Below are positions 1 through 6,882 of a DNA stretch of 6,882 bases, one piece after another (position 1 is the stretch's first letter; the number at the start of each line of letters is the position of its first letter). The DNA comes from Candidatus Pacearchaeota archaeon. Lineage in GTDB: Archaea > Nanoarchaeota > Nanoarchaeia > Pacearchaeales > GW2011-AR1. The stretch lies in contig NZER01000458.1 in the NCBI GenBank assembly GCA_002690445.1, forward strand, positions 1-6,882. Direction: 5' to 3'. Both the position numbers and the translations under genes were made by a program. The notes under the pieces are model-generated. The model was not told the DNA's origin. It did no database searches and was given only the letters and a program-made list of their open reading frames with translations.

Positions 1-958
1 TATATTCTTCATCAATGAACTCCTTGCGCTTGAGCAATTTGGATGAGCGTTTATTCTCGTATGGGCCATCAAGCCGAATCATTTGACCTTCATAACCAAC
101 CTCAACGTAATCAGCATACAATTCATCAAGATGCTCTCTGCTATTTACTTCGGTAGTCTCAACAATGACAAGGGGATTGGGTTCTCCATGAAGCGAACGA
201 CCATCTATTCCTAGATTAGCGAACGAGGCATCTAATTTGGAGGTTCTGTCTGAATACAAGTCCTTTTCAGACATAGCCCACTTACCGTTACCTATTACTG
301 GCGCATCATAAATATGATATTGAATCATTTTCTTACCCTCTGCCAAATGTTCTTCGGTAAGGTTCTGTTTACGAACAAGGTGAATGATTTTGTTGAAATC
401 ATCTTTGTACGCATGGTTATACAACTCACCGTCAAGAGTAGCGTTAGGATATACCTCAAAGAAGGGTTCTAATGCCTCATGGATATGTGGTACAGCCGTG
501 ATTGGCTTACCACTTCTCGTAAACAACCCCTCACGCATCGCAATACAACGTATGCCGTCTAGCTTGGGTTGAGAGAATACAGCAGCACCGAATCCAGTTG
601 TATTATCTGCTTCTGAACCAATTTCAGTCATTACTTCTTTCTGGCGATTCTTGTTCTTGAAATCTTGTGCCAGCATAGGCTCATAGAAACGCTTCCTGCT
701 AATATTCTTGAGGTTCAAGTGGTATCCCGCTTCAAGTTTTTTCTTATGCTTTGCTTCCGCTTCTTTGAGTGCCTGTTGCGCTGGCGTTGTTTCGTTTTTC
801 TTGCCCAAGTTTTTTCCTTCACATATCGTCCACTTGTTCGTGATTTTCTTTCCGTCTGATTGTCCCGATATTGTGCGGAATTTGTTGCTGTCAACTTCGA
901 TTGTCCAAGTCTGCGTCTTACCAACTGTGGTTTTCTTGTAGAGTTTGGGTAATTTCAT
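1..958 (-). CDS. ATP-dependent DNA ligase, 3'-truncated by the window edge
   Basis: This enzyme seals nicks in duplex DNA using ATP through a lysyl-AMP intermediate, a role in phage replication and repair. The frame is open from the ATG at 958 to the left edge (319 codons) with no stop, so the C-terminal end is missing. Residues 1-80 resemble a WGR domain (TWTIEV near 17-22, KKLEAGY at 73-79). The adenylation domain follows: motif I QPKLDGIR with nucleotidyl lysine K132; FTRSGK at 146-151; motif III LDGEL at 175-179; motif IIIa YHIYD at 214-218; motif IV EGQMIR at 290-295; motif V KLLKRK at 307-312. The OB-fold domain and motif VI should lie beyond position 1. The gene follows rIIB after a tandem-hairpin intergenic region. 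The start has no Shine-Dalgarno, only an A-rich leader. The ligase call is firm; the WGR call is by sequence resemblance only. Confidence 0.93.
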   Translation of the reverse strand, partial: MKLPKLYKKTTVGKTQTWTIEVDSNKFRTISGQSDGKKITNKWTICEGKNLGKKNETTPAQQALKEAEAKHKKKLEAGYHLNLKNISRKRFYEPMLAQDFKNKNRQKEVMTEIGSEADNTTGFGAAVFSQPKLDGIRCIAMREGLFTRSGKPITAVPHIHEALEPFFEVYPNATLDGELYNHAYKDDFNKIIHLVRKQNLTEEHLAEGKKMIQYHIYDAPVIGNGKWAMSEKDLYSDRTSKLDASFANLGIDGRSLHGEPNPLVIVETTEVNSREHLDELYADYVEVGYEGQMIRLDGPYENKRSSKLLKRKEFIDEEY

Positions 959-967
959 TTTCTTTTG

Positions 968-987
968 TTTTTTTATATGAGGTAAAT
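968..987 (-). promoter_or_regulatory. ATTTA-N4-ATATAAAAAAA element upstream of ligase
   Basis: On the minus strand, ATTTA is followed after CCTC by ATATAAAAAAA, ending 9 nt before the ligase ATG. The same arrangement occurs downstream of the rIIA stem-loop. It could be a -10-like or late-type promoter element, or simply an A-rich initiation leader; no -35 box is visible. Confidence 0.3.
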
Positions 988-993
988 TTTAAA

Positions 994-1032
994 GGAGGAG
1001 TGAGGATGAAACCAACCAAACCTCACTCCCCC
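994..1032 (-). terminator. G/C-rich stem-loop between rIIB and ligase, possible terminator
   Basis: Arms 994-1005 and 1021-1032 pair at 11 of 12 positions (single A/C mismatch at 996/1030), with a 15-nt loop. Read on the minus strand, the stem is followed by TTTAAAATTT, which is only a weak U-tract, so partial termination or a role in mRNA stability is as likely as full termination. It is the second of two stem-loops after rIIB. Confidence 0.5.
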
Positions 1033-1035
1033 CGT

Positions 1036-1060
1036 CTTGGAACAGTAAGGACATTCCAAG
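1036..1060 (-). other. Small stem-loop abutting the rIIB stop codon
   Basis: CTTGGAA at 1036-1042 and TTCCAAG at 1054-1060 form a perfect 7-bp inverted repeat around an 11-nt loop. It begins on the base right after the rIIB TAA (1063-1061). With no T-run behind it, it is not a classical terminator. It may protect the rIIB 3' end or fold together with the larger stem-loop that follows. Confidence 0.45.
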
Positions 1061-1924
1061 TTAGTTGTTTGTATTCCCTTCCTCTGCGTCCTTCGCAGCC
1101 TTGTATCCAGCGTACCAACCTTCATTCCAATCGTCCCGCTCGACATCCTCGTCGCTGCCATCATCCGAAACCCACTGATTGATGTAGTCATCGTTCAACC
1201 CATCGTCAAGAGGGGGAGCATCAATAGTTTCATACACTCCAACAACCTTATATTTGGCAGTACGCAACTTCTGGCAATCACAATCAAATGGCACACTCAC
1301 AACGTCAGAAGGGTCTATTTCAACAATCATCAAATGCCCTCCACCAGAGGCATAACCTTTGGCGTAATCATAACTACCAGCATGAAAACCATTGGAACAA
1401 CCAATGTTGGCATCATCACAAACAGTGTTGCGAATCATACTTAATGTCTGCCCAACGGAGTTATTAAAATTCCCACTGTAAAAATCAGTGAAATTATTAT
1501 TTACCCCTTTGTAGGCAAGGAAATTACCATCTGGTGTAATGGGCATATTCTTATGCTCAAGAAACGAATAAAGTTCCTCTGTTGCTCTGCGAGAAGGATT
1601 ATCCATGAGCTTACCAAGAAACTTAACAAGCGGTTGGTAGGGTAAACCATTCCGCATGAAGTCCAGAATCTTATCCACAACCATATTATGGACTACCTCA
1701 CCCTTAAAGGATACAGCACCATCCTTAACCTCAACCTCTGCATCATGGTCAAGGTAATCGGAGACTGCTTGCTCAACGTCAAATAGACCTTCTAGACGCT
1801 CCCATTCTTCATTCTTCAAGGCATCTACTGCTTGCTGCCAAGCAGGATGGTCGGCGTTCATTGTGTGGGCTTTGCCCTCAAAGATTACTGTGAGGCTTTT
1901 TTGTGTCAGTATGTATGGGTTCAT
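1061..1924 (-). CDS. rIIB: rIIB-like protein
   Basis: This 287-aa protein matches the rIIB family of large phages. In T4, rIIB acts with rIIA at the host membrane and affects lysis timing and exclusion by lambda lysogens; the biochemical function is unknown. The conserved core spans about residues 97-230: QPLVKFLGKLMDNPSRRA, then ITPDGNFLAYKG at 129-140, NNSVGQ at 154-159, CSNGFHAGSYDYAKGY at 176-191, and LMIVEIDPSDVVSVP at 198-212. The core is followed by a very acidic stretch (239-266, rich in D and E) and a last segment, GWYAGYKAAKDAEEG, at 269-283. A promoter lies about 40 bases upstream, so the gene can be transcribed separately from rIIA. No Shine-Dalgarno is visible; AAAAAAAC precedes the ATG. 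The family call is firm from the core motifs. Confidence 0.9.
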   Translation of the reverse strand: MNPYILTQKSLTVIFEGKAHTMNADHPAWQQAVDALKNEEWERLEGLFDVEQAVSDYLDHDAEVEVKDGAVSFKGEVVHNMVVDKILDFMRNGLPYQPLVKFLGKLMDNPSRRATEELYSFLEHKNMPITPDGNFLAYKGVNNNFTDFYSGNFNNSVGQTLSMIRNTVCDDANIGCSNGFHAGSYDYAKGYASGGGHLMIVEIDPSDVVSVPFDCDCQKLRTAKYKVVGVYETIDAPPLDDGLNDDYINQWVSDDGSDEDVERDDWNEGWYAGYKAAKDAEEGNTNN

Positions 1925-1962
1925 GTTTTTTTAGTCAGTGTTTTTATTGTTATCGTTCTATA

Positions 1963-1991
1963 AGATTACTACATCCTTGCACCCTTGTCAA
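1963..1991 (-). promoter_or_regulatory. Sigma-70-type promoter for rIIB
   Basis: On the minus strand, TTGACA (1991-1986) is followed after 17 bases by TAATCT (1968-1963). Transcription should start near 1955, giving a leader of about 30 nt before the rIIB ATG. The block CTTGACAAGGGTGCAAGG (1992-1975) repeats at 17 of 18 positions in the rIIA promoter, including spacer bases that sigma factors normally do not read. Confidence 0.75.
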
Positions 1992-1998
1992 GTCTTTT

Positions 1999-2157
1999 TT
2001 AGTTCTCTTTCTCGCTGAACTTGGTTCCGTCTATCTCTTTTAAATCGTCAATCACCTGACGCAGTTGCGCTGCTTGACCCCCATCATAATCATCCATGAC
2101 GGTCATGTTCCTCAACTGCTCCTCGTAACTTTTGATTTGTTCTTTTAGTTTTTTCAT
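1999..2157 (-). CDS. Small hypothetical protein (52 aa) between rIIA and rIIB
   Basis: ATG at 2157 opens 52 codons ending in TAA at 1999. The product starts MKKLKEQIKSYEEQLRNM, continues through MDDYDGGQAAQLRQVIDDLKE and ends FSEKEN. It is highly charged and probably helical, with heptad-like spacing that would suit a short coiled coil; there is no signal peptide or membrane segment. It starts 117 nt after the rIIA stop and ends 7 nt before the rIIB promoter, filling the gap in the same orientation with a charge balance typical of a real protein. The upstream sequence is A-rich (TTTACTAAA) with no Shine-Dalgarno. I do not recognise a family; a small partner of rIIA or rIIB is only a guess from position. 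Confidence 0.7.
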   Translation of the reverse strand: MKKLKEQIKSYEEQLRNMTVMDDYDGGQAAQLRQVIDDLKEIDGTKFSEKEN

Positions 2158-2169
2158 TTTAGTAAATTT

Positions 2170-2185
2170 CTTTTCGCCAGAAAAG
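2170..2185. repeat. Short perfect dyad upstream of the 52-aa gene
   Basis: CTTTTC and GAAAAG are separated by GCCA, a 6-bp inverted repeat with a 4-nt loop, 12 nt before the ATG at 2157. As RNA it would be a small hairpin near the initiation region; as DNA it could be an operator half-site pair. Chance occurrence in A/T-rich DNA cannot be excluded. Confidence 0.3.
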
Positions 2186-2199
2186 GAAAGTTTAAATTC

Positions 2200-2219
2200 T
2201 TTTTTTTATATTCCTAAAT
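2200..2219 (-). promoter_or_regulatory. ATTTA-N3-ATATAAAAAAAA element upstream of the 52-aa gene
   Basis: On the minus strand, ATTTA, GGA and ATATAAAAAAAA follow the post-rIIA stem-loop by 13 nt. It matches the element upstream of ligase apart from one base of spacing and one extra A. No TTGACA-like box lies at the usual distance, so promoter activity is unproven. Confidence 0.3.
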
Positions 2220-2232
2220 CTTTAATGGGAGA

Positions 2233-2266
2233 GGGAGGCAGTCCAAACCTACAAGGACTACCTCCC
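2233..2266 (-). terminator. Stem-loop after rIIA, possible terminator
   Basis: Arms 2233-2244 and 2255-2266 pair at 11 of 12 positions (mismatch 2239/2260) around a 10-nt loop. It sits 8 nt after the rIIA stop codon. On the minus strand the downstream sequence is TCTCCCATT, not a clean U-run, so it may be a weak terminator or a processing or stability element. Confidence 0.55.
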
Positions 2267-2274
2267 TTGTGTTC

Positions 2275-4554
2275 CTATTCCTCACTTCCTCCTTGTGAAG
2301 CATTGCATACGTCTATCACATTAATGTAGTTTGAGAGTACCTTCCCTTGGCTCGTAGTCCACTCGTAGCCCCATACTCCACGCTCCACCAGAGGAATCAT
2401 GTCGTATTTTTTTAAGACTTCCATGTATAGTTTTTTAATCTCATGTGTGGGCTTTACTCCCTTGGGGCAAGTAAAGTCTACATGGTATTCTCTCGCTATT
2501 GCCTGTATAGCCTTAATTTGCTCATGGATTTTTTTATCCTTTTTCATCTCGTTGTGTTTTGCAAGGAAACTCGCCATCACTCCGTCTGGAGCAACAAGTT
2601 CTAATTTTTTAAAGCAGGAGATTTGTGACTCAACTCTGGAACCGTAATATCTATCACCATCGTTCCAGTTATTTAAGTCATCAACCTTTTGAATATCAAT
2701 CCACGCTTGGTGGAGATTTCCTTCGGCAATAACTGTTTCTAGTTGACCCTTCGCCCATTCGTGCAACTCAACCCATCCATCCTTATTCTCAATCTTACCT
2801 CTCTGACCTACCTTAAAAGCGTAAAGATTCTTGGGGAATTTCACTCCCATTTGTTCTATCACCTCTTTCAAAGAACGAATAGTAGAGGGGTCATCCAAGA
2901 GAGTGTAGTCGTTCTTGTCTTTACGCTCAATATGGAATTTATCAATAATGACGTAAACGCCATCTTCGTTTTCAACATCTAATTCTGCTATCTTCCAATG
3001 GTCTGATTTCTTGGAGTGATACCTACGGATGTCAGCTTTAAAATCAAACTCGAAACACTTGGCAGAATGTTTGGCATCTTTGGTGTAGCTACTCCCTCCA
3101 CCAGAAGTTTGACCATAACCAAACTCACTCAATTTGTGCTGTGGCAGTTCAGAAAGTTTAATTGTTTCTCCATCAAACTTTTCAGCCTTGAGCCAAGCCT
3201 TTTTAACTTGAGAAGCACTTCTATTAACATTTTTACCTCCTTCTGTTCCTGAGTAGGGGTTGAACTGGAGGAGAAAAGGTTTCTTACCCTTTGTGAGAAT
3301 AAGGGGAAGCATCCTCCCCATTAAACCTCTCCGATGTCCTATGTCATTCTCAATTATGACCGTATCCTTTTCGCAGGAGATTGTTTGCGTTTCTTCTGGA
3401 CGCCACTTCTCACTTCTATAAGTTTTCTTAAAATGTCGCAAATCAACTCCCCCCGTGTTGTAGGTCTGGAAAGAGGAACCATCAACTTTCTCTCCTTTAA
3501 AAGTCAAGTGGTTATGGAGAACATTCCTCAGTGCGTACAGGGGAGAATCTGTTCTGAAGGTAGAACCGTACAGACATCTTGCGTCGTATAAGGTCTTGCA
3601 CTCCCCAAACTGTTTACCGATAGTTTCTGACAGTTCTTTTTGAACACCTTTTAAATATTTTTTTAATTGAGCGCGAGTATAATCAGTGTACTGGAGTTTT
3701 TCGCGAGAAGCAGAAATCTCCACATCACCAATCTCCACCTCAAGAATAAGATTATCAGTCAAAAGACTCCTAAAATCATCGTCTTGAGTAAGATTCAATG
3801 AATATTCATCAATGGGATACCCGATGTTACCCATAACAACGATTGCTTCATTATTACGGTCGTAGTTGGTTTTGTTGCAATCTGTCCACCTCCAATACTC
3901 CCCATTAAATAGAGTTTTCTCGTCGTTATACTCAAATTGAGCCGCGCCCTTTATTGTTGGCCGAACAGAAAACCATTCAAATAAATCTTTAGCTTTCTTT
4001 ACAAATTCGTCTGAGTCTTCGTCTTTTATAGGAACTACGATTTCAATACCATTTTCCTCCTTGGTATCCATCTCTGACAATTTAGAAATTTGTCCAACTT
4101 GAGTAGGATCAATGAAAGCATTGTAGGAACTCTTTTTACCGTCAAGGTAAGAGTTAATTACAAAATTGTCTCCGTATGCAAATGCCGCTTTTGAACCAAT
4201 CCCAAGCATACCAATTTGGTCGTTTGTATTCCGCTTGGTTGATTCTCCATAGAAGGCATAAATTTCGTGAATGTCTTGGTCAGACAAGGCAAGGCCAAAG
4301 TCTCTCACCTTAAAATAGGGATTCATTCGGTTAGGAAGGGTTACTACTATCGGACGAGTAGGGCAATGAGCTTCAACGTGAGCATCTACAGCATTACAGG
4401 TGTATTCTCTAATCACCGCAAGAACCTTATCGGAATAAAGTTGGTTACGGAGGATTCCAAGGATGTGGTGTAAGCCAGAGGCTTTGATTCCAAATTTAAC
4501 TGAACTGGTGATTCCGCTAGATTGGACTGTTTGGGTATTTACTTTGGGTTTCAT
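2275..4554 (-). CDS. rIIA: rIIA-like GHKL ATPase-domain protein
   Basis: This 759-aa protein carries a GHKL (gyrase/Hsp90/histidine kinase/MutL) ATP-binding fold at its N-terminus, as in the phage rIIA family, which in T4 pairs with rIIB in lysis control and lambda exclusion. N box: REYTCNAVDAHVEA with E50, N54 and D57. G1 box: RDFGLALS with D85. G2 box: GMLGIGSKAAFAYGD, glycines 115/118/120 and K122. The family motif ISASREKLQYT lies at 280-290. The remaining C-terminal half has no motif I can name. The frame stays open up to an ATG at 4662 (795 aa), but I chose 4554 because a strong promoter at 4580-4608 would start transcription near 4573, downstream of 4662, and the extra 36 residues overlap a terminator-like structure. 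The G1 box lacks the second glycine of DxGxG (A89). The gene ends in TAG, followed by a stem-loop. Confidence 0.9.
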   Translation of the reverse strand: MKPKVNTQTVQSSGITSSVKFGIKASGLHHILGILRNQLYSDKVLAVIREYTCNAVDAHVEAHCPTRPIVVTLPNRMNPYFKVRDFGLALSDQDIHEIYAFYGESTKRNTNDQIGMLGIGSKAAFAYGDNFVINSYLDGKKSSYNAFIDPTQVGQISKLSEMDTKEENGIEIVVPIKDEDSDEFVKKAKDLFEWFSVRPTIKGAAQFEYNDEKTLFNGEYWRWTDCNKTNYDRNNEAIVVMGNIGYPIDEYSLNLTQDDDFRSLLTDNLILEVEIGDVEISASREKLQYTDYTRAQLKKYLKGVQKELSETIGKQFGECKTLYDARCLYGSTFRTDSPLYALRNVLHNHLTFKGEKVDGSSFQTYNTGGVDLRHFKKTYRSEKWRPEETQTISCEKDTVIIENDIGHRRGLMGRMLPLILTKGKKPFLLQFNPYSGTEGGKNVNRSASQVKKAWLKAEKFDGETIKLSELPQHKLSEFGYGQTSGGGSSYTKDAKHSAKCFEFDFKADIRRYHSKKSDHWKIAELDVENEDGVYVIIDKFHIERKDKNDYTLLDDPSTIRSLKEVIEQMGVKFPKNLYAFKVGQRGKIENKDGWVELHEWAKGQLETVIAEGNLHQAWIDIQKVDDLNNWNDGDRYYGSRVESQISCFKKLELVAPDGVMASFLAKHNEMKKDKKIHEQIKAIQAIAREYHVDFTCPKGVKPTHEIKKLYMEVLKKYDMIPLVERGVWGYEWTTSQGKVLSNYINVIDVCNASQGGSEE

Positions 4555-4579
4555 TGTAGGTTTCTTAACGTCTGGTATC

Positions 4580-4608
4580 AATTTAGCATACCCTTGCACC
4601 GTTGTCAA
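4580..4608 (-). promoter_or_regulatory. Sigma-70-type promoter for rIIA
   Basis: On the minus strand, TTGACA (4608-4603) is followed after 17 bases by TAAATT (4585-4580), with TGC just before the -10 as in extended -10 promoters. The predicted start near 4573 gives a leader of about 18 nt before the ATG at 4554. The 18-bp block at 4609-4592 (CTTGACAACGGTGCAAGG) repeats in the rIIB promoter with one mismatch. Confidence 0.8.
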
Positions 4609-4614
4609 GAAAAA

Positions 4615-4708
4615 TTTGTACCCTTTTCGGCTGTCATTTAGTACCCAGTGATTCCAACCCATTCAAAACCACTGGTATGACTTTCTTTGTGCGACCCAAG
4701 GGTACAAA
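4615..4708 (-). terminator. Nested stem structure with T-run ending the sigma-factor operon
   Basis: The outer arms TTTGTACCCTT (4615-4625) and AAGGGTACAAA (4698-4708) pair perfectly over 11 bp. Inside are GTCAT/ATGAC (4633-4637 with 4677-4681) and CCAGTG/CACTGG (4645-4650 with 4670-4675). In minus-strand RNA the outer stem ends directly in UUUUUC (4614-4609), fitting an intrinsic terminator with an unusually large, structured loop. It starts 4 nt past the stop codon at 4713 and abuts the rIIA -35 box. Confidence 0.6.
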
Positions 4709-4712
4709 AAGT

Positions 4713-5408
4713 TTACCTAAAATCTGGATAAACATCTGCAAGCCATTCAGCATCACGCTTATTCACCCTTTTGGTCAGGGCTTCGCTTTCTTTATAGGCT
4801 TGATTCATCGCATTCCATATTTTCCTTTCCTGTATCTTCGCCGCCTTTTCTCCCTCCATATCAAGCGTAACGGGAACAATTATACTTTTAAACATTTGTC
4901 CAGACCTGTTGTGGAAATAATAAATATTCTTTAAAGTGTGTATTGTGCCTTTAATCACATCCCGCAAGTAATCATCGTATCTCCTCCTTTTGTGCATGGG
5001 CATACCCGCTGGAAATTTGAATGTTGGGAGTAGCAAGGTAACGGTGCTTTCGAGAGTAAAATTTGCTTTGCACCTGTCTTCATCAATATCAATATAATTT
5101 ATCCTCCAAGTCAGCTTCCAATCTGACCGTCTTGAAAGTCCTCCGTATTTTTTAACGTGCCTCCCCCAACTATTAACAAATGAACTTTCATTCCAGCCAG
5201 TAATTACCGGACGTATGACCTTCACGTTTACTTCTTGCGGGGGCAGCGGGTTAAATAATTTATTTATTTGAGGATTATTAAAGTCAGGCCAAGGCTTTAC
5301 GGCAATAGCGTCAAAGCTATAAAAAAGAGCTAGAATCAATAAGACCGGATGCAAGATTCCCATCTTGCTAACATAACCTGTCGAGTTTGTCTTTGTTACT
5401 GAACTCAT
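4713..5408 (-). CDS. Exported DUF922-like protein, probably inactive metalloprotease relative
   Basis: The product has 231 residues. A hydrophobic stretch at 17-36 (from MGILHPVLLILALF to DAIA) looks like a signal peptide with cleavage near AIA/V at 36-37, so the protein is probably exported; a start at M16 is also possible. Residues about 75-165 resemble DUF922, a family of predicted secreted zinc proteases: WKLTWRINY at 97-105, a single Cys113 where the family has one, TVTLLLPTFKFPAG at 122-135, then RYDDYLRDVIKGTIH at 143-157. Family members usually carry HExxH at the end of this helix; here it reads KGTIH, so only the second histidine (H157) remains and the catalytic Glu is absent. The C-terminal region (185-220) is charged and helical. 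It is the last gene of operon A, 18 nt after the 98-aa gene. The fold assignment is from memory of the family pattern and is moderate; the function is unknown. Confidence 0.7.
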   Translation of the reverse strand: MSSVTKTNSTGYVSKMGILHPVLLILALFYSFDAIAVKPWPDFNNPQINKLFNPLPPQEVNVKVIRPVITGWNESSFVNSWGRHVKKYGGLSRRSDWKLTWRINYIDIDEDRCKANFTLESTVTLLLPTFKFPAGMPMHKRRRYDDYLRDVIKGTIHTLKNIYYFHNRSGQMFKSIIVPVTLDMEGEKAAKIQERKIWNAMNQAYKESEALTKRVNKRDAEWLADVYPDFR

Positions 5409-5426
5409 ATTATTTTACACTTTCTT

Positions 5427-5723
5427 TTAGTTGTTTCGGGGATTAGTAAAGAATATATTTCTTTCGTTTATTTCGTTCTCAGGAAGGTCTTGCGCTTCAA
5501 TAAATTTTCTTTTTAAATCTACCAGAGCATCATGTTTACCTACCAGCGTAGAGTACGCTGGCGGCATATTGTCAAGCCATTCCTTCGCATATTCTTTTTT
5601 TCCATTTATATTAAAAGAGTAGTCTTTTTCAGTAGGCATATAACCTGTTTGTTCCATCATGTAGTGGGTATCCGCAATCAAATGCTCAATCCATTTTACT
5701 ACATTTGTAGACGATACATTCAT
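5427..5723 (-). CDS. Hypothetical protein, 98 aa, coupled to the sigma gene
   Basis: This short soluble protein is not one I recognise. Its ATG overlaps the sigma-factor TGA as ATGA, which indicates translational coupling. The N-terminal half (VVKWIEHLIADTHYMMEQTGYMP, about 8-30) and residues 62-80 (ALVDLKRKFIEAQDLPENE, with flanks) look helical. There is no membrane segment, cysteine pair or nucleotide-binding motif. AAGGAG occurs upstream, but about 14 nt from the ATG, too far for a normal Shine-Dalgarno. Its position next to the sigma factor would suit a small regulator or co-factor such as an anti-sigma protein, but nothing in the sequence shows that. Confidence 0.75.
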   Translation of the reverse strand: MNVSSTNVVKWIEHLIADTHYMMEQTGYMPTEKDYSFNINGKKEYAKEWLDNMPPAYSTLVGKHDALVDLKRKFIEAQDLPENEINERNIFFTNPRNN

Positions 5724-6568
5724 TTATTTGTTCTCATCTCCTTCTTCATCCAAGTCCTTAATTTGCCCATAGCGATTGTTTCTATTTGCCTAATTCGTTC
5801 CCTTGTTAGTTTATATTTCTTTCCAATCTTTTCAAGGGTTTCTGCATCCAGTAGTCCTAGCCCAAACCTATGTTGAATGATGTATTTCTCGCGTTCCGTA
5901 AGTTTATTTAAAAGTTTATTTAAAGACTCAATATTATTAATGCTTTCTGTTCTTTGAGAGGGGTTTTTCATCAAGACATCTTCAATTATTTCTCCAAAGG
6001 TTGCTGAGTCCTCCCCCTCTCCCCCAACTTGCTTATCTATGGAGGTATAAGAATACACATAGTCAAGTATTTGCTCAACCTTTTCGGGTTTTATATTTAG
6101 CTCTTTAGCTATGCGCCTCGGAGATGGGTCACGGTCATGTTTTGTATTGTATTGGTCTATGAATTTTAAAATGGTTGAGCGTTTTTGATAGAGATGACAG
6201 GGGATACGAATCGTTTTCGACTTATTTGATAATGCTCGTTTAATGGACTGTTTAATCCATAAAGATGCGTATGTAGAAAATCTTACTCCCCTATCTCCTC
6301 TAAACTTTCCAACTGCTTTCATTAAACCAATGTTACCCTCGTTGATTAAATCAAGGATGTCCAAACCATAATTAGAATAACCGTTTGCTATTTTGATAAC
6401 TAGACGCAAATTAGCTCTAATCAAATGTTCTCTTGCTGCCTCTTGTTTTTTCTTTGAACCTTTTTCTATTTGGTTAGCTAGAAGTATTTCCTCCTTTGCC
6501 GTTAGGAGGTCTACCTTTCCTGCTTCTTGATAGTAAATATCAATCGCCGTTCTCTGTTCGTATGACAT
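5720..6568 (-). CDS. RNA polymerase sigma-70 family factor (phage-encoded)
   Basis: This 282-aa sigma factor would bind host core RNA polymerase and direct it to promoters. Region 1.1 is absent. Region 1.2 is at 9-37 (IYYQEAGKVDLLTAKEE), region 2 at 46-132 (LIRANLRLVIKIA, then DLINEGNIGLMKAV and RFSTYASLWIKQSI), region 3 near 133-180 (DPSPRRIAKEL), and region 4 at 215-272. The region 4.2 helix-turn-helix reads TLEKIGKKYKLTRERIRQIE, keeping the RERIRQ residues that contact TTGACA -35 boxes in E. coli sigma-70. In region 2 several bases-contacting positions differ: L103 replaces the first tryptophan of the WW pair, V95 replaces Tyr425 and K110 replaces Thr440 (E. coli numbers). Length and the GKVDLLTA segment resemble Bacteroidota primary sigma factors. 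It starts 10 nt after the 64-aa gene and overlaps the next gene by ATGA. Full-length factors of this kind are uncommon in phages, where sigma proteins are often reduced. Confidence 0.93.
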   Translation of the reverse strand: MSYEQRTAIDIYYQEAGKVDLLTAKEEILLANQIEKGSKKKQEAAREHLIRANLRLVIKIANGYSNYGLDILDLINEGNIGLMKAVGKFRGDRGVRFSTYASLWIKQSIKRALSNKSKTIRIPCHLYQKRSTILKFIDQYNTKHDRDPSPRRIAKELNIKPEKVEQILDYVYSYTSIDKQVGGEGEDSATFGEIIEDVLMKNPSQRTESINNIESLNKLLNKLTEREKYIIQHRFGLGLLDAETLEKIGKKYKLTRERIRQIETIAMGKLRTWMKKEMRTNK

Positions 6569-6578
6569 AATTATTTAT

Positions 6579-6773
6579 TTAAACAAGGGTTTGGAGACAT
6601 TTTTCGTGAATTTCTTGAAGGGTTTCTTTTACTTCTACGTTATGATCTCCGAAACTGACCTCAACATATTCATCGGAGTAAGGAGATGTCATTGACTTGG
6701 CGTAATGTACGTTATTCCAATTCACCATGACTTCCTTTCCAGACCCAGTGGTTGTCAGTGTTATATTTTTCAT
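6579..6773 (-). CDS. Small hypothetical protein, 64 aa, faintly FlbD-like
   Basis: The product reads as a short beta-strand-rich protein ending in an amphipathic helix: ITLTTTGSGKEVMVNW, VHYAKSM, DEYVEVSFGDHNVEVKE, then TLQEIHEKCLQTLV. The order of a Gly-Lys strand turn, a V/I strand and a terminal VKES/VKET-like segment recalls the small FlbD family (flagellar-associated, about 60-70 aa), but similarity is faint and a flagellar role in a phage is not implied. Its ATG overlaps the stop of the preceding gene as ATGA, and the sigma gene starts 10 nt after its TAA, so it is part of the same operon. No membrane segment. Confidence 0.7.
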   Translation of the reverse strand: MKNITLTTTGSGKEVMVNWNNVHYAKSMTSPYSDEYVEVSFGDHNVEVKETLQEIHEKCLQTLV

Positions 6774-6882
6774 TTTAATTTTTTAACTGTTCCATCCTCG
6801 TCGATGTCTAATCCACGATGGCGTTCACCTACGTCCATGCGATTCTTAAATTTCTCATCCTTACTGTACCAAGAGTCACTAA
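6770..6882 (-). CDS. C-terminal end of an unidentified protein, truncated by the window edge
   Basis: An open frame enters from the right edge (first full codon at 6880) and ends in TGA at 6770, overlapping the next ATG as ATGA. The 36 visible residues begin SDSWYSKDEKFKNRMDVG and end DEDGTVKKLK; they are charged and hydrophilic. The other two minus frames are closed by stops here, and the coupled overlap supports a genuine gene. Too little is visible to name a family. Confidence 0.6.
   Translation of the reverse strand, partial: SDSWYSKDEKFKNRMDVGERHRGLDIDEDGTVKKLK

Follow-up and report, generated by a model that had tools for sequence, protein, structure and literature searches.

The rIIA-rIIB locus and its two promoter sites

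The stretch of DNA analyzed here, called the window, is the 6882 bases of contig NZER01000458.1 (positions 1 to 6,882; assembly GCA_002690445.1, Candidatus Pacearchaeota archaeon). It carries the phage genes rIIA and rIIB, each preceded by a site in which -35 and -10 boxes enclose the same short spacer element; the two sites are probably middle-type promoters of a large phage. A gene for an RpoD-like sigma factor lies upstream of rIIA, and an ATP-dependent DNA ligase gene is truncated by the window's end. The features are:

1061..1924, reverse strand: rIIB (phrog_609, E 7e-68)
1963..1968, reverse strand: rIIB promoter, -10 box TAATCT, weak (sequence)
1975..1982, reverse strand: rIIB promoter, spacer element GTGCAAGG (sequence, motif search)
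1986..1991, reverse strand: rIIB promoter, -35 box TTGACA (sequence, motif search)
2275..4554, reverse strand: rIIA (phrog_612, E 3.6e-112)
4580..4585, reverse strand: rIIA promoter, -10 box TAAATT, with TG at 4588-4587 (sequence, promoter scan)
4592..4599, reverse strand: rIIA promoter, spacer element GTGCAAGG (sequence; position matches the element of relatives)
4603..4608, reverse strand: rIIA promoter, -35 box TTGACA (sequence, motif search, promoter scan)
5720..6568, reverse strand: RpoD-like sigma factor with regions 1.2, 2, 3 and 4 (Pfam Sigma70_r1_2, r2, r3, r4; alignment), the leading candidate reader of the element

The S-degenerate 18-mer CTTGACAASGGTGCAAGG, with at most three mismatches, matches exactly twice in the window, against a mean of 0.01 in 200 shuffles. 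One copy, CTTGACAAGGGTGCAAGG, lies at 1992-1975 and the other, CTTGACAACGGTGCAAGG, at 4609-4592, both on the reverse strand, and they differ at one base. Each is followed at 17-bp spacing by a -10-like hexamer, TAATCT (1968-1963) for rIIB and TAAATT (4585-4580), with its TG one base upstream, for rIIA. Both sites sit just upstream of their genes, which start at 1924 and 4554, respectively. An earlier note on this DNA had described a near-identical 18-mer before the two genes at the same 17-bp distance to the -10, and its coordinates and single mismatch are borne out. The rIIA site has the sigma-70-type form (-35/-10 score 10/12, 17 bp apart) in a simple promoter scan; the rIIB site, with a -35 of 6/6 and a weak -10 of only 3/6, also 17 bp apart, is missed by it. 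That scan returned 11 promoter-like sites in the window versus 15.9 in shuffles, no excess. The two 17-bp spacers are identical at 12/17 positions, and agreement of at least 12/17 among the 17-bp spacers of relatives occurs in 51 of 11887 between-genome pairs and 39 of 993 same-genome pairs. A third TGCAAGG, at 2560-2566 on the forward strand, lies within rIIA outside any promoter setting.

In an annotated phage collection, 22 records match the window, all of them Streptomyces phages. The listed matches cover 2-3% of the window at 66-71% identity, and by this sequence comparison no phage of the collection is close to it.

Promoters of related phages

Relatives were gathered from IMG/VR with rIIB as the query, which gave 35 loci; the 17 contigs whose rIIB is most similar (G001-G017) were taken whole. 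A query with rIIA found no loci, although most of the rIIB loci later proved by tblastn to contain rIIA. The following pairs represent one phage each: G002 and G003, G022 and G023, and L174 and L175. The rIIB of this family also occurs on contigs in two metagenome-assembled genomes (MAGs) of different phyla, L168 (Flavobacteriales) and L169 (Woesebacteria), at least one of them probably misbinned. Open reading frames were called by a simple script. A promoter was defined as TTGAC followed after 16-18 bp by a hexamer with A at position 2, T at position 6 and at least 3/6 matches to TATAAT, located before a gene and not deep inside one. By this definition, 238 sigma-70-like promoters precede genes in the 17 related viral contigs. 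The TTGAC requirement means that class-2 promoters (defined below) whose -35 box departs from it go uncounted; two such cases, seen by eye to have the element, are the rIIB promoters of G004 (TTGCAT) and G005 (TTGCAC). A literal 16-mer search of IMG/VR gave eight contigs, none of which, by eye, has TAnnnT 16-18 bp from TTGACA in the flank inspected.

An author-made rule separated class 1, of the form TTGACA-N17(..TGTGn)-TATATT, from class 2, in which TTGAC may be followed by any base and the -10 is often weaker. Of 14 relatives examined for rIIA, 13 have a strict promoter before the gene; for rIIB the count is 11 of 16. Class 2 is also found before other genes, among them one some 70-100 codons long (12 genomes) and a clamp-loader-like gene (nine genomes; PHROGs E 9e-13).

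Three further observations concern these upstream regions. The -10 box ends 6 or 7 bases before the ATG in 97 of the 238 promoters of G001-G017, which would place the predicted start on or beside the start codon and suggests that many mRNAs of these phages lack a leader; most rIIA promoters sit further upstream than that. CCTAC, unlike a Shine-Dalgarno sequence, stands shortly before the start codon of rIIA in 9 of 15 leaders compared, the window's (4555-4573) included. A GC-rich inverted repeat around CGGCGGGACCGGTCCC, whose left edge carries TTGACA, recurs at G005 14070 and 21319 and at G020 122139 and is possibly a terminator-like hairpin.

A lineage-private spacer element

Spacers agree more within a genome than between genomes. 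With no class filter, mean agreement is 4.57/12 within and 3.82/12 between genomes (225 promoters), and shuffles gave 3.87 (standard deviation 0.05, maximum 4.06). Class 2 alone gives 5.09/12 versus 4.17, with a maximum of 4.43 under label shuffling (175 promoters), and class 1 alone gives 5.45/12 versus 4.73 (z 3.4, 50 promoters). The class-2 excess falls mainly at about -25 to -18, and positions -23 and -21 differ most. G002 was excluded from these spacer-identity and position-profile runs and from the element-versus-flank, leave-one-out and sorting-control runs described below; four G012 promoters with TAAAG were moved by hand to class 2 for the position profile, element-versus-flank and leave-one-out tests.

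The element at this position differs from lineage to lineage. Its consensus is TTAAAAAA with 16-bp spacers in G001, and similar in G008, G009 and G021; cGTAAa in G003; TAGAAt in G004; CGGA-type in G005, G019 and G020; cTAAAG in G012; TATAA in G014; TAAC-type in G022; and GTGCAAGG in the window. Spacers of G007 and G010 are mostly 18 bp. For the two elements of the window the best score is with L168, from which four of five promoters were used, followed by G013; both have CAAGG words. When each promoter was left out in turn, its own genome ranked first among 20 for 79 of 248 promoters, against a mean of 12.2 and a maximum of 21 in 30 label shuffles (G018, G023 and G024 excluded here and from the sorting controls).

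An A-rich core at about -22 to -20 is common to many lineages, as might be expected of a generic A-tract or base-composition effect in AT-rich phage spacers. Such an effect is a very improbable explanation, given that the elements contain lineage-specific G and C letters (CGTAA, CGGA, CTAAAG, GTGCAAGG) and that class-2 within-genome identity drops from 5.09/12 to 3.97/12 once the letters of each spacer are shuffled among themselves.

The comparison was repeated under several sortings. Within-genome element identity was 0.405 versus 0.336 in shuffles with no class filter, 0.477 versus 0.388 for class 2 by rule with no hand move, 0.477 versus 0.391 for class 2 without G012, and 0.465 versus a null of 0.370 for one genome per lineage with rule-sorted promoters only; none of 2000 shuffles reached the observed value in any of the four. 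The same rules were applied to a held-out set of contigs from later searches (L168, L169, L174, L176, L177, L178 and L180; L175 excluded), from which the class-1 rule dropped several class-2-looking L176 and L180 promoters. In its 38 class-2 promoters on seven contigs, element identity within contigs was 0.444 versus 0.341 (0/1000 shuffles reached), and the upstream flank gave 0.320 versus 0.321 by label shuffling.

The element can also be compared with its surroundings. Among 179 promoters, identity of the element (-25 to -18) is 0.480 within the same genome, 0.411 for the same gene in another lineage and 0.373 in the background; the same-gene value is also above chance (p 0.016). For the 8 bp directly upstream of the -35, the corresponding values are 0.365, 0.437 and 0.356, and for the next 8-bp stretch upstream they are 0.314, 0.391 and 0.310. 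Sets of upstream 8-mers used as controls reached the observed element identity 0/500 times in 12 of 16 genomes. The two window copies, identical at 17/18 bases with most of the first spacer positions included, could be taken for recent duplicates with a functionless spacer. This is the least probable of the explanations weighed here, as the flanks of the two sites differ and, upstream of the -35, promoters of any one relative are scarcely more alike than background. The element tracks the genome more closely than the gene, and the upstream flank tracks the gene, a pattern that recent promoter duplication does not explain. Promoters were apparently inherited with their genes while the element shifted in step within each genome, which is the pattern expected of a trans-acting reader.

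Judged by these sequence comparisons, the class is present in relatives before orthologous genes, with an element that changes in concert within a genome. The earlier note had placed a second factor or operator at the spacer core and proposed one phage regulator for both genes. The first part holds up, in that the core behaves in relatives as a selected, shared element that changes in concert per genome and differs between lineages; its reader may be a separate regulator, as the note proposed, or the phage sigma encoded in the window. The note had further taken CTTG-N9-CAAG for a weak dyad and operator. This is judged unlikely and the dyad looks incidental, as its left arm belongs to the -35 box and, by eye, the consensus elements of other lineages have no such dyad. 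Judged by eye only, the consensus elements of most lineages show no dyad symmetry; some G005 elements (GG-AAA-CC) look symmetric.

Candidate readers of the element

The proposed class layout is TTGAC, then a lineage-private element in the spacer, roughly 8 bp long and spanning about -25 to -18, and finally the -10 box TAnnnT. A phage-encoded, trans-acting specificity factor would read the element on host RNA polymerase and would thereby control rIIA, rIIB and the other class members together. Class-2 genes would be switched on probably after early genes that carry the second promoter class (TTGACA...TGTGn TATATT). A lineage-specific reader is well supported, and that it is encoded by the phage, whatever its kind, is probable.

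A host protein, such as an alternative sigma, the RNA polymerase core or a regulator, might instead read the element, which would then differ as the hosts of the phages differ, and hosts may indeed differ between lineages. Class-1 promoters bear on this possibility, since they share one form across lineages (TGTGn TATATT, partly by class definition). Class-2 words occur in the class-2 spacers of G001 (6/6), G003 (9/14), G004 (5/9), G005 (8/22), G010 (6/13) and G012 (3/5). In class-1 spacers they number 0/8, 0/6, 0/2, 0/1 and 0/10 in the first five of these genomes and 4/4 in G012, these being the hand-moved promoters, so that the class-2 word is missing from class-1 promoters in five of six genomes checked. 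Given the common class-1 form and the lack of the class-2 word there, host preference alone does not explain class 2, and a host reader is unlikely.

The most likely reader, named tentatively, is a phage RpoD-like sigma. In this version, region 4.2 would contact TTGAC, region 2.4 the -10, and a diverged region 3.0 would lie near the element. Besides the window, an RpoD-like sigma is found in G003, G004, G006, G011, G012, G014, G015, G017 (remote), G019, G020, G021, G022 and G023. Among G001-G017, region-4 sigma matches occur in nine contigs, RpoD-like in eight; G010 has only a shorter ECF-like one (extracytoplasmic function; author's label). Among G018-G024, region-2 matches occur in six of seven, with three each in five, one of G020's being under the cut-off. 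The RpoD-like sigma retains region 2.4 and the TRERIRQIE-type helix of region 4.2, matching the fixed TAnnnT and TTGAC. Mean pairwise identity across 12 sequences is 65% for region 4.2, 68% for regions 2.3-2.4 and 28% for the region 3.0 helix; the remote G017 sigma was omitted from the identity and Mantel runs. In three bacterial primary sigmas (SigA chains 7ckq and 7l7b of the PDB, and L181 from a Woesebacteria MAG), region 3.0 reads IRIPVHMVETINKL. It is possible, though somewhat short of the case for a sigma reader as such, that RpoD-like phage sigmas keep their -35/-10 specificity and add a fast-evolving third specificity for the spacer element through the diverged region 3.0, giving each lineage a private promoter lock and a regulon that re-evolves in concert.

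Each of the phages G019-G023 has three sigma-like matches, including the RpoD-like one and a shorter one of about 200 amino acids. The third, of 241-260 amino acids in G019, G020 and G022, lies near a presumed terminase gene in those three. Three sigma-like proteins per phage suggest a sigma cascade.

Several results weigh against a sigma as the reader of this element. No RpoD-like sigma was found in G001, G002, G005, G007, G008, G009, G010, G013 or G016, contigs that may be incomplete; the G010 contig has some 24 kb of sequence on the upstream side of rIIA. Variability of region 3.0 is no proof that it reads the element, since region 3.1 and the linker vary just as much (25% and 24% identity). 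A Mantel comparison of region 3.0 with the element gave r 0.26 and p 0.059 in 11 genomes and r 0.17 and p 0.105 (partial r 0.20, p 0.067) when enlarged to 13, neither of them significant. The 3.0 helix had the highest r of eight sigma segments in both runs, tied in the 11-genome run with a longer 3.0 segment and not significant. G015, with a weak element, was omitted from both. The 13-genome run used 8/8 L174 promoters and hand-picked promoters of L176 (9/10) and L180 (5/9), some of them class 1 by rule; the L180 phage was dropped (sigma not recovered), and the L188 sigma, on L169's contig, was unused. The available text of PMC5101437 describes RpoD region 3.0 and the beta' zipper as touching -17/-18, whereas the most lineage-specific positions of the element are -23 and -21.

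Other adverse points concern the element itself. Class 1 by rule also shows a within-genome excess (0.450 versus 0.385; 5/2000 shuffles reached), perhaps partly because the rule places the four G012 TAAAG promoters in class 1. The window has only two copies of the GTGCAAGG-type promoter. Leave-one-out placed 0/6 G007, 0/8 G008 and 0/13 G010 promoters, perhaps due to close relatives in the set. Control sets reached the element identity in G007 (8/500), G013 (5/500), G015 (61/500) and G017 (14/500), where the signal is weak, and a same-genome excess, though a smaller one, is also seen in the 8 bp that follow the -10 (0.366 versus 0.328). Anchoring of the element to the -10 was convincing by eye, but a fixed distance to the -10 or to the -35 split 24 versus 23 of 47, and the idea was rejected.

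A separate phage DNA-binding protein, either a co-activator like MotA of T4 or a repressor, may instead read the element at promoters used by the host sigma-70 holoenzyme. This is the next likely reader, a possibility nearly as strong as a phage sigma. With -35 and -10 boxes of host type, these promoters could be used by host RNA polymerase, and fast-evolving phage regulators typically have private operators. A candidate is a small protein (cluster 3, 69-102 amino acids; e.g. L049 14640-14882) with a basic, GRTKG-like start and, in most members, an aromatic C-terminal tip. It is present in 10/10 long contigs compared and adjoins the clamp-loader-like gene where inspected (G003, G004, G012 and G019). 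Against such a binder, the element is short and, by eye, mostly non-palindromic; the two small-protein members tested match no PHROG, and the protein's model is of low confidence (predicted local distance difference test score, pLDDT, 64). No systematic search for helix-turn-helix regulators was made, and their absence is not claimed.

Comparison with known systems

One of the closest parallels is the T4 middle promoter, in which a phage-specific element stands beside a host-type -10 and the class is common to many prereplicative genes; PrIIB2 is the first entry of the middle-promoter table in the portion of PMC2988021 that was available. The T4 arrangement differs in that the place of the -35 is taken by the MotA box (TGCTTtA, centred at -30). 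The window sites do not have this layout, showing a perfect TTGACA at -35 and an element at about -25 to -18, and TTGAC is kept in the class. MotA and AsiA are not named among the PHROGs matches of eight window proteins, in which no search was aimed at either.

Phages phiEco32 and 7-11 resemble the present case in that related phages with their own sigmas have different promoter consensus sequences at similar genome positions, according to excerpts of PMC8948821 and PMC4331800. There the whole promoter changes (tAATGTAtA versus GTAAtg-16-aCTA), whereas here the -35 and -10 stay fixed, the spacer element changes and the sigma is RpoD-like. Promoters of sigma-E, a bacterial ECF sigma, have a spacer sequence element with a proposed contact to the sigma segment just past domain 2; the accessible sections of PMC5333181 do not describe lineage-private, concerted change. 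The Z-element, contacted by the beta' zipper and sigma region 3.0, also shows that RNA polymerase can recognize spacer DNA. As described in the same part of PMC5101437, it lies at -17/-18 with mostly backbone contacts, whereas the element here is further upstream and varies with lineage. In the literature searched, much of it available in part and with subscription papers largely outside its scope, no phage family was found whose promoters have a lineage-private element in the spacer between consensus -35 and -10 boxes.

Meaning for the phage family

Taken from sequence alone, the pattern suggests that the members of a promoter regulon can together exchange a third recognition element with the -35 and -10 unchanged, and can do so in many lineages of one phage family. 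If a phage sigma is the reader, these phages would supply a natural set of sigma factors in which a third specificity is tunable, and the question of which DNA sigma region 3 is able to read would become directly testable. The element may also offer a route to the middle genes of uncultivated phages.

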